Assembly: GCF_009601025.1 (NCBI RefSeq) | Contig: NZ_WIVE01000015.1 | Coordinates: forward strand, 1-64,000 | DNA: 64,000 bases | Origin: Roseospira navarrensis | GTDB taxonomy: Bacteria; Pseudomonadota; Alphaproteobacteria; Rhodospirillales; Rhodospirillaceae | Reading direction: 5' to 3' | In this document: one piece after another, positions 13,753 through 60,970 of the stretch | How positions within the stretch are numbered: position 1 is the stretch's first letter | How the letters are laid out: every line of letters begins with the position of its first letter | The notes under the pieces: generated by a model | Databases searched by the model: none | Seen by the model: only the letters and a program-made list of their open reading frames with translations | Told to the model about the DNA's origin: nothing | Translations under genes and position numbers: made by a program

Positions 13753-14049
13753 GTCGCGGCCCTCGCGGGGTAGTGGGGAACGCGGGAGCGAACGGTGCGT
13801 TGAGTCGTCAACCCCGGTGTTTCCCTTGGGGGCATGGCGCCCCCGCACGCGGCAGGAACCCCGGCCCGCGTTTCACAGTGCTGACGCAATCCGTATCGCG
13901 GGCACCATCGTCCTGACACAAACCGGGCCTGTCATCCGCGGTGTGCCGAAAGGCGGGCGTGTCACCGGCATCGGCCGATGGTATGCATCCGTCCGGACCG
14001 GCTGAGGTCCGTCCGATCCCGTCGTCTCTCCCTTGGAGCCCGTTCCAGC

Positions 14050-15648
14050 ATGTCGCCTGAGTCGTCGTCCGTCATGTGGCCTCCCCATCTTTCCCGTCGC
14101 CGCGTGCTGTCCGGGCTTGCCGGTCTGGCGGGTGTGACCGCCGCGGGTCTGCCGCCGGTCCGCGTCGTGGCCGCCCCGGACGAGACCACCTTTTTCGCCC
14201 GCCTGGTCGATCGCGCCGCCGCCAAGGCCAACGCGACCTACAAAGCGCCGGCTGACGATTTGCCCGAGGTCCTGGCCGACCTGACCTACGACGACATCCG
14301 CGACATCCGCTTTCGCCGGGACCGCGCCATCTGGCACGGCGAGTCCCCGTTCGAGGTGCACCTGCTGCATCTGGGCCACTACCTGAAGCGGCCCGTCCGC
14401 GTGCACACGGTGGAGAACGGGCGGGTCACGCCGGAGACCTACCGGCCGGATCTGTTCGATTTCGGCCGGACCGGCATTGATGCGTCGGCGTTCGGCGAGC
14501 TGGGCTTCTCCGGGCTGCGTCTGATGTACGCGCTCAACGATCCGACCGTGATGGACGAGTTGATCGTGTTGCAGGGGGCGAGCTATTTCCGCGCCCTGTG
14601 CGCCGGCGCGGTCTACGGGCTGTCGGCGCGGGGCGTGGCGGTGAACACGGCGCGCCCGGACGGCGAGGAGTTTCCCGCCTTCACCGAGCTTTATGTGGAG
14701 CGGCCGGCGGCCGGGGCCGAGTCGATCGTGCTGTATGCCCTGCTCGACGGGCCGTCGCTGGCCGGCGCCTACCGATTCGAGGTGACGCCGGGCATGACCA
14801 CCCGCACGACCGTGCAGGCGCGTCTGTTCGCCCGCCGGCGCGTGGAGCAATTGGGCATGGGGGTCCTCACCAGCATGTTCGACTTCGCGCCCGTGGACCG
14901 GGCCGGCGTCGAGGATTTCCGTCCCCGGGTCCATGACTCCCAGGGGCTGAGCATGCGGACGGAGTCCGGCGAGTGGCTTTGGCGGCCGCTGAACAATCCG
15001 GACCGGCTGGAGGTCAACGTCTTCCAGATGCCGAACCCGGGCGGGTTCGGGCTGATGCAGCGGGTGCGGCAGTTCGACCGTTACCAGGACCTGGAGGCCC
15101 AGTACCACCGGCGCCCCAGCGCCTGGGTCACGCCGCACGGCGATTGGGGCGACGGCGCGGTGATCCTGGTGGAGATCCCGACGCCGGACGAGACCCGGGA
15201 CAACATCGTGGCGTTCTGGAAGCCGGCGATTCCGTTCGAGCCGGGGCTGCCGCTGGCCATGGATTACGATATCGACTGGACGCTGGACGGCCCCCGGCCC
15301 GAACGCGCCTGGTGCGAGGACACCCGCGCCGGTCACTACGGTCTGCCCTCGACCGAACTGGACGAAACCATGCGCCGGTTGGGGCGCAAGTGGGTGATCG
15401 ATTTCGTTGGCGGGCCCGTGCGCAATCTGTGCACCCCGGACGATGTCGCGGTGGTCGCCTCGGTCGATGGCGGCCGGATGGATCGCCCGGTTGCCGTGCT
15501 GAACGACCACACCGGCGGGGTCCGGGTGTTCCTGGATACCGTCGCGAACGGCCATGGCCCCATGAACCTGCGGTGCCATCTTGCGCGGGACGGGGCGCCG
15601 ATCTCGGAGACCTGGACCATGCAGTGGCGGCCTCCGGCGGCTGCGTAG
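14050..15648 (+). CDS. opgG: Periplasmic glucan biosynthesis protein OpgG/OpgD type
   Basis: This 532-residue exported protein of the MdoG family shapes the branches of osmoregulated periplasmic glucans. A twin-arginine signal (SRRRVLSGLAGLAGVTAAGLP) starts near residue 16, which is closer to OpgD than to Sec-exported OpgG. The mature part keeps the family landmarks DDIRDIRFR, FEVHLLHLG and AWVTPHGDWGDG. The frame is open from 13978, and I choose the ATG at 14050, just before the signal. The 297 bases upstream contain no gene. OpgH, which makes the backbone, follows after one small ORF. Confidence 0.93.
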   Translation: MSPESSSVMWPPHLSRRRVLSGLAGLAGVTAAGLPPVRVVAAPDETTFFARLVDRAAAKANATYKAPADDLPEVLADLTYDDIRDIRFRRDRAIWHGESPFEVHLLHLGHYLKRPVRVHTVENGRVTPETYRPDLFDFGRTGIDASAFGELGFSGLRLMYALNDPTVMDELIVLQGASYFRALCAGAVYGLSARGVAVNTARPDGEEFPAFTELYVERPAAGAESIVLYALLDGPSLAGAYRFEVTPGMTTRTTVQARLFARRRVEQLGMGVLTSMFDFAPVDRAGVEDFRPRVHDSQGLSMRTESGEWLWRPLNNPDRLEVNVFQMPNPGGFGLMQRVRQFDRYQDLEAQYHRRPSAWVTPHGDWGDGAVILVEIPTPDETRDNIVAFWKPAIPFEPGLPLAMDYDIDWTLDGPRPERAWCEDTRAGHYGLPSTELDETMRRLGRKWVIDFVGGPVRNLCTPDDVAVVASVDGGRMDRPVAVLNDHTGGVRVFLDTVANGHGPMNLRCHLARDGAPISETWTMQWRPPAAA

Positions 15649-15666: not shown

Positions 15667-16098
15667 ATGATGACGCTTTCACCCCGCACGTTCGAGGGTC
15701 TGCTGGCCGACAAGGCCCGGGTCTACCTCAGCCAGGCCCACCGCCTGGACCCCGACACCGCCGACCGGGTCGCCGGCGAGGCCGCGCGCCAGGTGATGGC
15801 CGGCTTGCGGCCCGCCGCGGTCCAGCAGGCTTATCCGGCCGTCATCCGCGTGGCCCGGCGCATGACCATGGCGCTGCCGGGTCGCGGCCCCGCAGGGGCG
15901 GCTCCGCCGGTGCCGGCGCGCCAGGGCCGGCCCATGCGGCAACAGCCGCTGGATCCCCTGACGCTGGCCGACCTGGGCGACCGCTCCCGCAGTGGCGGCC
16001 GGCGGCTCGTGGGCCAGTTGCCGGCCCTGCGGGCCCTCGTGAGCGCCGGGGCCATCTTCGCGATGGTGCTGCTGGCTCTGCCGAGCCCGACGGGGTGA
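15667..16098 (+). CDS. Small hypothetical protein between opgG and opgH
   Basis: This 143-residue reading frame starts 18 bases after opgG with a GGGAGA site. The N-terminal half looks like a helical domain (TFEGLLADKARVYL, then AADRVAGEAARQVM). A Pro/Arg-rich middle follows, and one probable membrane helix lies near the C-terminus (ALVSAGAIFAMVLLAL). I do not recognise a family. Position suggests cotranscription with the glucan genes and perhaps a role as an OpgH accessory. Another frame could have produced a chance ORF, but start, spacing and helix support a gene. Confidence 0.6.
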   Translation: MMTLSPRTFEGLLADKARVYLSQAHRLDPDTADRVAGEAARQVMAGLRPAAVQQAYPAVIRVARRMTMALPGRGPAGAAPPVPARQGRPMRQQPLDPLTLADLGDRSRSGGRRLVGQLPALRALVSAGAIFAMVLLALPSPTG

Positions 16099-16102
16099 TC
16101 CA

Positions 16103-16335
16103 GCCCGACCGGGCCGGCGCCGCGCAGCGGCGGAGGCCATGACCCGGACGAATCCGGGTCATCGCCGATGAAGACCACCCGGCCCGACCGGGCCGGCGCC
16201 GCGCAGCGGCGGAGGCCATGACCCGGACGAATCCGGCTCATCGCCGATGAAGACCACCCGGCCCGACCGGGCCGGCGCCGCGCAGCGGCGGAGGCCATCA
16301 ACCCGGACGAGTCCGGGTTGATGGCCGATCAAAAC
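16103..16335. repeat. Three tandem copies of a 79-bp three-hairpin element
   Basis: Copies begin at 16103, 16182 and 16261, with an exact 79-base period. The last copy is cut where the opgH leader begins. Each copy carries three stem-loops: GGCCCG-AC-CGGGCC, CGCCGC-GCA-GCGGCG, and an arm such as ATGACCCGGA-CGAA-TCCGGGTCAT. In copy 3 the last stem changes on both sides (ATCAACCCGGA with TCCGGGTTGAT), extends to 15 pairs, and still pairs perfectly. A diverged inverted copy lies at 60902-60970. The array sits in the leader between the small ORF and opgH. Confidence 0.9.
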
Positions 16336-16353
16336 AAAGAAGAGAGGCTCGCG

Positions 16354-18417
16354 ATGCTGACCCGGCGCCGCCTGTTCCTGTTGTGCGTGCTGACGATCAC
16401 GCTGCTGGCGACTCAGTCGTTCGTCCAGGTGCTGGGCGCGAATGGCCTGTCGCTGCTCAACGTGGCGCTGATCGTGGTCTTCGTGCCGCTGGCCGCGTGG
16501 CTGGCGCAGTCGTTCTGCACGCTGACGGCGGGAGCGCTGCTGCTGGCCGGCCATCGCATCCGGGGCGGCGACCTCCTGCATGTGGACCCGGAGGACCGGG
16601 CCGCCGGTCTGGCGCCCCATCTGCCGCGCGTCGCCCTGGTCATGCCGGTCTACAACGAGGACACCGCGCGGGTGTTCGCGGGGGTGGCGGCCATGCGCGA
16701 CGATCTGGCGGCGCTGGGCGTGGCGTCGCGGTTCGATGTGTTCGTGATCTCCGACACCACGGACCCGGACCTGTGGCTGGCCGAGTCCGAGGCGTGGCGG
16801 GCCGAAAGCGCGCGCGACCCCGCCGCCCTGCCGCCGGTGTACTACCGCCGCCGGCTCGACAACACCGGCCGCAAGACCGGCAACATCAAGGACTTCGTGG
16901 AGCGCTGGGGCGGCGCCTACGGCGCCATGGTCACGCTGGACGCGGACAGCCTGCTGGACGCCCGCACCATCTGGCACCTGACCCGGCGGCTGGATGCGCG
17001 GCCGCGCACGGCGCTGATCCAGGCCCCGCCGAAGCTGGTGCGGGGCCAGACGCTGTTCGCCCGCCTGCTGCAGTTCGCCGGTGATGTCTACGGCCCGCTC
17101 AGCGCCGCCGGCATCGCCTTCTGGGCCGGGGGCGAGGGCAACTACTGGGGCCACAACGCCATCATCCGGCTCAGCGCCTTCGCCCGCTGGTGCGGGCTGC
17201 CGAAGCTGCCCGGGCGGGAGCCGCTGGGCGGCGAGATCCTGAGCCACGATTTCGTCGAGGCGGCCCTGTTGCGGCGCGCCGGCTGGCGCGTGGAAATGGC
17301 CTGGGATCTGTCCGGCAGCTACGAGGAGCCGCCGCCCACCCTGTCCGACTTCATGGTGCGGGACCGGCGGTGGTGTCAGGGCAACCTGCAGCATGGCCAT
17401 GTGGTGATCGCACGACGGTTGCACTGGGTCAGCCGGGCCCACTTGCTGACCGGGATCATGAGCTATCTGACCTCGCCGCTGTGGTTTCTGTTCCTGATCC
17501 TGGCGGGCCTGCAGGGCTGGACGCTGTCGGTGGCCGAGCCGGTCTATTTCCAGGAGGGCACGCCCTGGGCCACCTGGCCGATCTCGCGCGAGGGCGAGGC
17601 GGCGGTGCTGCTGGCCGCCATGATGGGGCTGCTGTTCCTGCCGAAGCTCTGGGGGCTGCTGCTGGCCCTGGCCGATGGACCCGGCCGGCGGGCGCGGGGC
17701 GGCGGGCTGCGTCTGGTGGGCGGGGCGCTGGTCGAGACCGTGGTGTCCGCGCTGATCGCGCCGGTGATGATGGTGCGCCACACCCGCTTCGTGATCGCCA
17801 TCCTAACCGGCTCCAAGGTCGCCTGGACCCCGCAGCGTCGCACGGCGGGCGGGCTGACCCTGGCGGACGCCGTGCGGGCGAACCTCGACGTGCTGGTGCT
17901 CGGGGTGGCGGCCACCGTCGCCGTGCTGCTCTACGCGCCGACGCTGGGCTGGTGGCTCGTGCCCGTGCTGGCGGGGCTGGTGGGCGCCCCCGTGCTCAGC
18001 CTGCTGCTGGACAGCGGCGAAGCCCGCGGCTGGGGGCCGTCGCGCGGCGCGTTGACGATTCCGGAGGACCTGGACCCGCTGCCGGTGCTGTCCGCGATCG
18101 ACGCGCATGAAGCCCGCTTCAAGGCCCTCCTGGCGGCGGCGCCGGAAGACCGCTTCCGCGCCGTGCTGGTGGAGCCGGAGACGAACGCCCGCCACTGTGC
18201 CCTGCTGGCCGAGATCGGCGAGGAGTCGCGGCTTTCGGCGGAGATGGCGCAGCGGGCCGAGGTCCTCGCCATGCGCCTGGGGCCCGGGGTGCTGACCCGG
18301 GACGAGCGGCGTGCCCTGCTGGAGCGCGCCGACAGCCTGGCCCGCGTCCATGAGCACATCTGGGCGGCGGATTGCGACGCCGCGCCGGACGCGGGCGCGC
18401 CGACCGCGGCGGCGTAA
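16354..18417 (+). CDS. opgH: Glucan biosynthesis glucosyltransferase OpgH
   Basis: This inner-membrane family 2 glycosyltransferase polymerises beta-1,2-glucose from UDP-glucose for periplasmic glucans. The first membrane helices are near residues 7-60. The catalytic domain shows VMPVYNED, LDADSLLD, SHDFVEAALL and the RDRRWCQGN (QxxRW-like) motif. Further helices follow, then a soluble tail. At 687 residues it is somewhat shorter than E. coli OpgH. The frame is open from 16318, but GAAGAGAGG lies seven bases before the ATG at 16354. The tandem repeat lies directly upstream. Confidence 0.95.
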   Translation: MLTRRRLFLLCVLTITLLATQSFVQVLGANGLSLLNVALIVVFVPLAAWLAQSFCTLTAGALLLAGHRIRGGDLLHVDPEDRAAGLAPHLPRVALVMPVYNEDTARVFAGVAAMRDDLAALGVASRFDVFVISDTTDPDLWLAESEAWRAESARDPAALPPVYYRRRLDNTGRKTGNIKDFVERWGGAYGAMVTLDADSLLDARTIWHLTRRLDARPRTALIQAPPKLVRGQTLFARLLQFAGDVYGPLSAAGIAFWAGGEGNYWGHNAIIRLSAFARWCGLPKLPGREPLGGEILSHDFVEAALLRRAGWRVEMAWDLSGSYEEPPPTLSDFMVRDRRWCQGNLQHGHVVIARRLHWVSRAHLLTGIMSYLTSPLWFLFLILAGLQGWTLSVAEPVYFQEGTPWATWPISREGEAAVLLAAMMGLLFLPKLWGLLLALADGPGRRARGGGLRLVGGALVETVVSALIAPVMMVRHTRFVIAILTGSKVAWTPQRRTAGGLTLADAVRANLDVLVLGVAATVAVLLYAPTLGWWLVPVLAGLVGAPVLSLLLDSGEARGWGPSRGALTIPEDLDPLPVLSAIDAHEARFKALLAAAPEDRFRAVLVEPETNARHCALLAEIGEESRLSAEMAQRAEVLAMRLGPGVLTRDERRALLERADSLARVHEHIWAADCDAAPDAGAPTAAA

Positions 18418-60415: not shown

Positions 60416-60892
60416 ATGGCCCGCCTCGACTTCTATCACCTGTATCAATGGCCCCTTGAACGGGCGTTGCCGCTGTTGCTGACCCGCGCCTACCGGACGG
60501 AGGCGCGGGTTCTTGTGCTGGCGGCCTCCATGGATCGGGTGCGGGCGCTGAATGCCCTGCTGTGGACGTTCGACCCCAAAAGCTGGCTGCCTCACGGATG
60601 CCGCGACGACGGCTATCCCGAACACCAGCCGATCTGGCTGAGCGACCGCGAGGAGCGCCCCAACGGCGCCACGCTCGCCGTGCTCACCGAGGGCATGACG
60701 GTGGCCGACGCGGGCGGCTGGGACCGTGTGCTGGACCTGTTCGACGGCCGCGACGAGGCCGCCGTGGCCGCCGCCCGCGACCGCTGGCGCACCGGCCGGG
60801 ACGCCGGCCACGAACTGCACTACTGGCAGCAGACCGAGCAGGGCGGCTGGACGGAAAAGGCCAGCGCGAACGTCACCCGCGACGATGCGTGA
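60416..60892 (+). CDS. holC: DNA polymerase III chi subunit
   Basis: This 158-residue protein matches HolC: DFYHLYQWPLERALPLLL, ALLWTFDPKSWLPHG and the NGATLAVLTEGM segment. Chi binds psi and SSB in the clamp-loader complex. Length is normal. The start ATG at 60416 lies 52 bases after the protease stop. The structured repeat follows the stop by about ten bases. Confidence 0.93.
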   Translation: MARLDFYHLYQWPLERALPLLLTRAYRTEARVLVLAASMDRVRALNALLWTFDPKSWLPHGCRDDGYPEHQPIWLSDREERPNGATLAVLTEGMTVADAGGWDRVLDLFDGRDEAAVAAARDRWRTGRDAGHELHYWQQTEQGGWTEKASANVTRDDA

Positions 60893-60901
60893 TACTGATC
60901 G

Positions 60902-60970
60902 ACGATGAACCGGACTCGTCCGGTTCATCGCCTCCGCCGCTTCGCGGCGCCGGCGCAGTCGCGCCGGCCT
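60902..60970. repeat. Three-hairpin element, single inverted copy
   Basis: Read on the complementary strand this is the same element as the 79-bp units at 16103. Stem one pairs CGATGAACCGGA with TCCGGTTCATCG around CTCG (60903-60930). Stem two is CGCCGC-TTC-GCGGCG (60935-60949). Stem three is GCCGGCGC-AGTC-GCGCCGGC (60949-60968). Bases differ from the array copies, yet the stems stay perfect. Confidence 0.88.

Follow-up and report, generated by a model that had tools for sequence, protein, structure and literature searches.

The triple repeat in front of the opgH-like gene of Roseospira navarrensis is very probably one shortened copy of a transposable element that has been triplicated in tandem, the element being specific to the genus, non-coding, built from hairpins and, as a MITE-like satellite, derived from an IS630-type (DDE_3) insertion sequence (IS). 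The idea of a mobile hairpin element, one of two readings offered by the initial annotation of this DNA, is supported by dispersed copies throughout the genus, by a TNA target-site duplication and by ends which are common to the element and an IS630-type IS. Coordinates given without a further designation refer to the window, i.e., the whole stretch of 64,000 nucleotides that was analyzed.

Results

The Array in Front of opgH

The three tandem copies of 79 bases that had been described for this locus are real. They are detected by TRF (score 402, period 79) as three direct copies of 79 nt on the forward strand, at positions 16100–16178, 16179–16257 and 16258–16336. The array occupies a gap of 255 bp between the stop codon (16096–16098) of an ORF of 143 amino acids (15667–16098, +), which is without Pfam match, and the ATG (16354) of an opgH-like gene for a family-2 glycosyltransferase (16354–18417, +; searched from 16351, in frame). 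The 143-aa ORF itself lies between opgG (MdoG; 13978–15648, +; PF04349) and opgH.

Each unit contains three stem-loops in the same order, as had been proposed from the sequence: H1, H2 and H3 are found at 16100–16117, 16118–16132 and 16135–16166 in unit 1 (followed by the tail GATGAAGACCAC), at 16179–16196, 16197–16211 and 16214–16245 in unit 2, and at 16258–16275, 16276–16290 and 16293–16326 in unit 3. These hairpins were recovered when units 1, 2 and 3 were folded as single-stranded DNA (−25.8, −25.7 and −36.5 kcal/mol, with z of −3.7, −2.9 and −7.3), H1 being reduced to four pairs in the fold of unit 1. H1 reads CCGGCCC-GACC-GGGCCGG in units 2 and 3 and has CCAGCCC in unit 1, while H2 is CGCCGC-GCA-GCGGCG in every unit. 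Copy 2 shares 97% identity with copy 1, and copy 3 equals copy 2 across the first 41 nt and diverges thereafter. The last stem of copy 3 (ATCAACCCGGA...TCCGGGTTGAT) is indeed altered on both arms compared with that of copy 1 (ATGACCCGGA...TCCGGGTCAT). The further claim that pairing is kept applies in part: solely copy 3 has a perfect H3 (a stem of 15 bp, one pair more than in copy 1), whereas H3 of copies 1 and 2 contains mismatches.

Dispersal Within the Genus

When the array was used as a blastn query, 43 matches were obtained in its own genome (40 of 218 candidates scored). A covariance model (R1), which was built from 35 aligned copies and lacks the pair of column 44 with column 67, gave 101 matches in this genome at E ≤ 0.001 (150 of 16,291 candidates scored). 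The set of 100 copies used for the statistics below is not exactly identical to these 101 matches, as it comprises 99 matches from a rescan of 92 fetched sources plus the middle unit of the array, which overlaps its neighbors; the three array units are counted as three copies in this set. A second, separate copy in the window lies on the reverse strand at 60891–60970 (102.5 bits). It has TCA at both recognized ends, and the right-hand TCA is the stop codon of a gene called at 60416–60892 (+).

A covariance search with stricter filters found the element in all six Rhodospira/Roseospira genomes (the own genome, G000, and G001 to G005), in one of 30 other members of the family (weakly, 2e-4) and in none of 24 members of the order. 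Such a search in related genomes had been suggested by the initial annotation, and it revealed wide occurrence in the genus and not only local copies. Among GTDB contigs, a 22-base core was found in 26 stretches, all of them titled Rhodospira or Roseospira; unlike this core, a 30-base pattern had no match in the same collection, which may omit records near the source genome. No match to a type B copy (see below) was present in the plasmid and phage collections. Rfam yielded no family at gathering scores in the 64-kb window; at ten loci of the elements themselves (E up to 1), the matches over the elements all stayed well short of gathering. In the titles and abstract openings retrieved from the open-licence literature, no repeat family of either Rhodospira or Roseospira is described. 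The copies have also not turned out to be a known REP class without conserved pairing, the result which had been named in advance as speaking against a structured element: the tested GTAG-REP features are missing and no Rfam family fits.

Anatomy of Long and Short Forms

The copies are modular in build. Types A and C measure ~110 bp, type B ~180 bp and the longest forms, which occur in three species, ~230–275 bp; the G+C-content of the copies is 0.54–0.84 (mostly ~0.7). Short, non-coding and numerous (110–275 bp, ~100 copies in the own genome), the element has these general properties of a MITE. Many copies contain a further 5′ hairpin, H0. In the short forms H0 consists of the left end and its inverted copy, and H3 of the right end and its inverted copy; types A and C keep both ends in this way, as two hairpins that enclose H1 and H2. 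Among the 76 copies with a clean five-pair H2 stem, 66 carry the stem CGCCGC, and there are others in which both arms are altered. Most copies have a C(GNA)G triloop in H2 (55 of the 76 have GAA and 10 have GCA), a motif also found in d(GCGAAGC), a DNA hairpin of very high stability. The commonest apex of H3 is GACGAGTC (28 of 57 scored), and the DNA fold of one long copy had a z of −6.9.

Another tandem triplet with a 79-bp period and a type B-like core was observed elsewhere in the own genome (L214; G000 C147 19304–19543), immediately after a TGA stop. The opgH array begins one base past such a stop, the L214 triplet directly past it.

Ends and Target Duplication

The termini of the element are TAC...GTA. 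Long forms, ~180–275 bp in length, start with TACC, finish with GGTA and carry an imperfect inverted repeat of ~12 bp (majority TACCGGCCGACG/CGTCGGCCGGTA). Twelve copies were compared for this repeat: eleven of them have 8–11 of 12 bases matching, and the remaining one, with 7 matching bases, is without H0. Terminal inverted repeats (TIR), as they are typical for MITEs, are accordingly a property of the long forms, and in types A and C perfect inversion is limited to TAC/GTA.

The trinucleotides flanking the element are TNA and form a 3-bp direct duplication outside of it, i.e., the target-site duplication of a MITE. Both ends were recognized in 20 of the 100 copies: N was equal on both sides in 19 of them and the whole trinucleotide in 17, and 19 equal N were reached by none of 100,000 shuffles, the search pattern having partly fixed the T and A of TNA and left N free. 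When only exact ends were considered, N was equal in seven of eight cases. When plain end patterns were searched for in a second scan of all available loci, N was equal in 12 of 16 cases (reached by 4 of 20,000 shuffles), and in one of three and none of four at wider spacings. Compared with a backward pattern, the pattern of TIR and TNA (at most one mismatch) was found 34 times versus once in the own genome, 53 versus once in G003, 37 times versus never in G002 and 11 times versus once in G004; it was not enriched over this control in G001 (3 versus 4) or G005 (6 versus 4). As no pair of filled and empty sites was found, insertion of the element is not directly demonstrated. The opgH orthologues yield no empty site, since the gap sequences of the relatives are not alignable by eye.

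The opgH array itself has degenerate ends and no recognizable target duplication, which counts against its interpretation as a MITE. Its left end reads TCCAGCCC in place of TACCGGCCC, following the TGA stop of the 143-aa ORF (16096–16098, +). This TGA occupies the left TNA target position of intact copies and, judged by comparison with other left ends, would be the counterpart of the left target trinucleotide.

On two contigs of G003 (L082 and L085), a right end is joined to a left end via a single TTA (GGTATTATACC), which suggests head-to-tail neighbors sharing one target trinucleotide. Two more elements (L128 1315–1468 and L218 1337–1505) show TACC...GGTA ends and matching TNA flanks in combination with other internal hairpins (TACCAGCGGCGGGTGAGTGTGACTCACCCGCC and TACCAACGGCATCTGACGATGACCGTTG); perhaps these represent other families of a like kind.

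A Probable IS630-Type Partner

In Rhodospira trueperi (G002), an IS of ~1.17 kb (C14, 14070–15243) possesses element-like ends and TCA on both sides. It encloses HTH_33, HTH_32, HTH_29 and DDE_3 domains in two frames, which we take to be those of an IS630-type transposase; the reading frame of this copy is broken. A second IS630-type element of the same genome (C23, L260 1391–2556) has similar ends, but its unequal flanks, TTA and TCA, argue against the proposed link between the family and IS630-type IS.

For the comparison of ends, 13 element ends were picked by hand and the 12 in register were used; the end left out (B_L136_R) was 3 bases out and was seen in register in a separate alignment. 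The right ends of long forms matched the left end of the IS at 23, 20, 20 and 19 of 25 positions, those of type A at 18 and 17 and that of type C at 15 of 25, values reached by at most 3 of 20,000 shuffles. The left ends of the element matched the right ends of the IS at 18, 17 and 16 and, for the second IS, at 19 of 25 positions (at most 2 of 20,000 shuffles). The expected end of the IS, i.e., the left one for right ends and the right one for left ends, was the best match for 11 of the 12 element ends, the exception being the left end of L226 with 17 of 25 matches to the left end of the second IS against 16 to a right end. Due to this exception, and because the ends of the IS resemble each other, the handedness of the match is not absolute. 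Both ends of the element are nevertheless common to an autonomous IS, as is expected of a MITE.

The other DDE_3 loci (in G000, G001, G003, G004 and G005 and a fragment in G002), several of which are cut by contig ends, did not exhibit such a pair of ends; they had no end match at all or a single one in which 2 of 12 bases were mismatched. The own genome contains only a decayed, sub-threshold DDE_3 fragment (25.3 bits against 28.6). As this fragment is all that was seen of DDE_3 in the draft genome, movement of the element in R. navarrensis may have stopped. PF01609 and PF13586 had no match in the own genome, and 3–9 and 1–5 matches, respectively, in the other five genomes of the genus.

Covariation of the Hairpin Arms

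Changes on both arms of a stem also occur across the family. In 35 copies, which were chosen for their similarity to the array and in which conserved parts are therefore over-represented, 94.6% of the cells are paired and nine pairs are changed on both sides. The number of both-side-changed cells was 32, compared to 7.6 in shuffles, with a clear drop when the partner was slid. Further pair types gave a weak signal (18 against 14.9; reached by 18 of 500 shuffles). The paired-arm change is real. The initial annotation had seen in it a mark of selection on structure; the covariation holds across the 35 copies, but it is by itself not proof of selection.

Another source of the paired changes, which is compatible with the MITE interpretation, could be a templated correction from arm to arm (quasipalindrome repair) instead of structural selection. 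We regard this as a possibility, but a rather doubtful one. Among the compensated cells of the 35 copies are swaps of G-C to C-G, for which there is no G.U intermediate, and in the seven best-preserved type C copies, which are similar to each other, the 13 pairs of H1 and H2 are invariant, while H3 with its four variable pairs has eight compensated cells and one mismatch. When seven further copies were added (14 type C-like copies), the mismatched cells of H3 (19) outnumbered its compensated ones (ten), and five mismatches were present in H1 and H2; many copies bear uncorrected changes of a single arm. As decayed copies bear such changes, neither selection nor arm-to-arm copying is proved, and the same picture would result if entire H3 modules were swapped or if selection acted on master copies. 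It appears unlikely that, in a stricter form of this idea, each transposon end was turned into a snap-back hairpin (the end plus its inverted copy), with one arm being copied from the other whenever the element moves or is repaired, so that the arms stay matched. In that case templated resynthesis of the hairpins, rather than selection, would have left the paired changes behind, and the IS630-type enzyme would act on single-stranded or cruciform ends.

Position Relative to Genes and to opgH

Both neighboring genes were called for 92 of the 100 copies, of which 36 lie in convergent, 51 in tandem and five in divergent gaps; in the background, made up of gaps ≥40 bp in 27 sources that contain elements themselves, the corresponding numbers are 22, 86 and 32. 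The remaining eight copies, which are without a called neighbor and include L028, called inside a gene, were left out, and the gene calls are approximate, with ORFs of high GC3 as training set. In tandem gaps 26 copies are oriented sense and 25 antisense. The family favors the 3′ ends of genes without a preference for either strand. A preference for stop codons as such was considered and rejected: 17 of 60 copies lie exactly on the stop codon of a neighbor against 18.5 expected from a random choice of TNA in the gap, and thus no stop preference exists beyond the targeting of TNA.

Two copies were observed in the vicinity of RNA genes. A long element (L215 1356–1454) lies no more than ~60 bases from the gene for a small SRP RNA, with the SRP RNA match beside the element, and another one (L228 1031–1106) is separated by ~0.4 kb from a match to tmRNA that narrowly misses its gathering score.

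opgH is present in four of the six genomes of the genus. Upstream of it, three units are found in the own genome and one decayed copy (51.5 bits) directly upstream in G004, while no element was found before opgH in G001 and G002. A leader RNA specific for opgH would be conserved before this gene and confined there; the element precedes opgH in two of four genomes and its copies are dispersed. The element upstream of opgH is optional and, as ~100 copies exist throughout the genome and the family also occurs in close relatives, the array is not a dedicated opgH switch.

It is very unlikely that selection maintains the element as a cis-acting RNA structure (a stabilizer, a terminator or an attenuator) in 5′ or 3′ UTRs, that of opgH included. 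Such a role would be in line with the covariation described above, with the depletion of copies from divergent gaps and with single-strand DNA folds far below those of shuffles (z of −14.7 for a type C copy). Yet, the equal numbers of sense and antisense insertions, the lack of the element before two of the four opgH orthologues and the lack of an Rfam family at gathering scores, both in the window and at the ten element loci, speak against it. Furthermore, RNA selection on one strand should favor G.U on that strand. A.C and G.T mismatches in the stems are alike, with 25 versus 20 overall and, at small counts, 4 versus 5 in sense and 7 versus 4 in antisense copies. As neither a strand preference nor a surplus of G.U relative to A.C mismatches is seen, the data do not support a role as RNA. 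An RNA structure controlling opgH, the second reading of the initial annotation, is likewise unsupported, as the element is dispersed and occurs in both orientations.

That the copies are REP/BIME-type palindromes moved by the RAYT (an IS200/IS605-like Y1 transposase) of the genome is highly improbable: their high copy number, hairpins, mosaic build and location at 3′ ends would fit, and the own genome contains one Y1_Tnp (RAYT-like) gene (L107; G000 C106 245627–245965), but this single locus, which was rejected as a partner, lacks an R1 match (E up to 1) and is flanked by a different GTAG-type repeat (GTAGGGCGGGTTCGCGCC-GAA-GGCGCAACCCGCC, with GNA triloops), whereas the present element lacks a GTAG tag and has TNA target duplications and ends in common with a DDE_3 IS. 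The repeat flanking L107 is a separate REP-like repeat of the same genome.

Discussion

Among known systems, RUP (repeat unit of pneumococcus) with IS630-Spn1 is the closest in kind to the interpretation favored here, a MITE-like satellite of an IS630-type IS. RUP is described as a non-coding, intergenic repeat of ~100 bp and ~100 copies with IS630-family-like ends and TA at its termini, which inserts at TA and is proposed to be mobilized by IS630-Spn1 (PMC2229807). The present family resembles it in size, copy number, non-coding and intergenic nature, IS630-like ends, terminal TA and a partner with an IS630-type transposase (HTH and DDE_3), and differs in being rich in G+C, in its three or more hairpins, its other ends, its TNA duplication and its occurrence in Rhodospira/Roseospira. 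The TNA target is a point against the link to IS630, as RUP is described to insert at TA (PMC2229807); in the present family TNA is duplicated, and TA is found at both termini within the element.

Correia/NEMIS and other bacterial MITEs share with the family TIR, target duplication, long and short forms and hairpins (PMC2229807). By description, not by sequence, the series of separate short hairpins sets the present family apart from Correia/NEMIS. GTAG-REPs and BIMEs with their RAYT are similar in the many dispersed hairpins near gene ends and in stems varying on both arms (PMC3733652). The present element differs from GTAG-REPs by its ends, TNA|TAC...GTA|TNA, with TIR and a TNA duplication and without the GTAG tag. 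The CGTC-tagged REPs of alphaproteobacteria are palindromic repeats as well, and the TIR of the present family, read outward, begins with CGTC (CGTCGGCCGGTA). CGTC-tagged REPs are described as single stems of 8–9 bp with loops of 4–5 nt and without an associated transposase (PMC3733652). The present elements, with 110–275 bp and an IS630-type partner, are set apart from them by this description. Rhizobial intergenic mosaic elements (RIME, ABC-type) are hairpin mosaics in alphaproteobacteria, and the family is similar to them in this respect by description rather than by sequence. Taken together, the family is a new IS630-linked MITE family of an already known kind, with hairpin ends and a TNA target.

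How the array may have come about can be pictured as follows. An IS630-type transposase would have bound the ends of the element in trans and moved it into TNA trinucleotides. An insertion at the stop codon of a gene would rebuild the stop via the duplicated TNA, while insertions in promoters and coding sequences would be lost. The 3′ ends of genes would be tolerable sites, since any TNA reads as a stop, TAA or TGA, on one of the two strands and insertion duplicates it. At opgH, slippage or unequal exchange would later have duplicated the copy locally to give the 79-bp tandem array, and H3 of units 1 and 3 may have diverged or been exchanged.

A convincing-looking covarying leader RNA has thus turned out to be a dispersed transposable element, and covariation among dispersed repeats can mislead RNA discovery. 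Copy number, orientation, the comparison of G.U with A.C mismatches and end duplication are simple checks that sort such cases. For the element itself, a TNA duplication restoring the stop at the end of the gene that is hit might be a simple route to harmlessness, as every TNA is a stop on one strand and its duplication rebuilds the stop.
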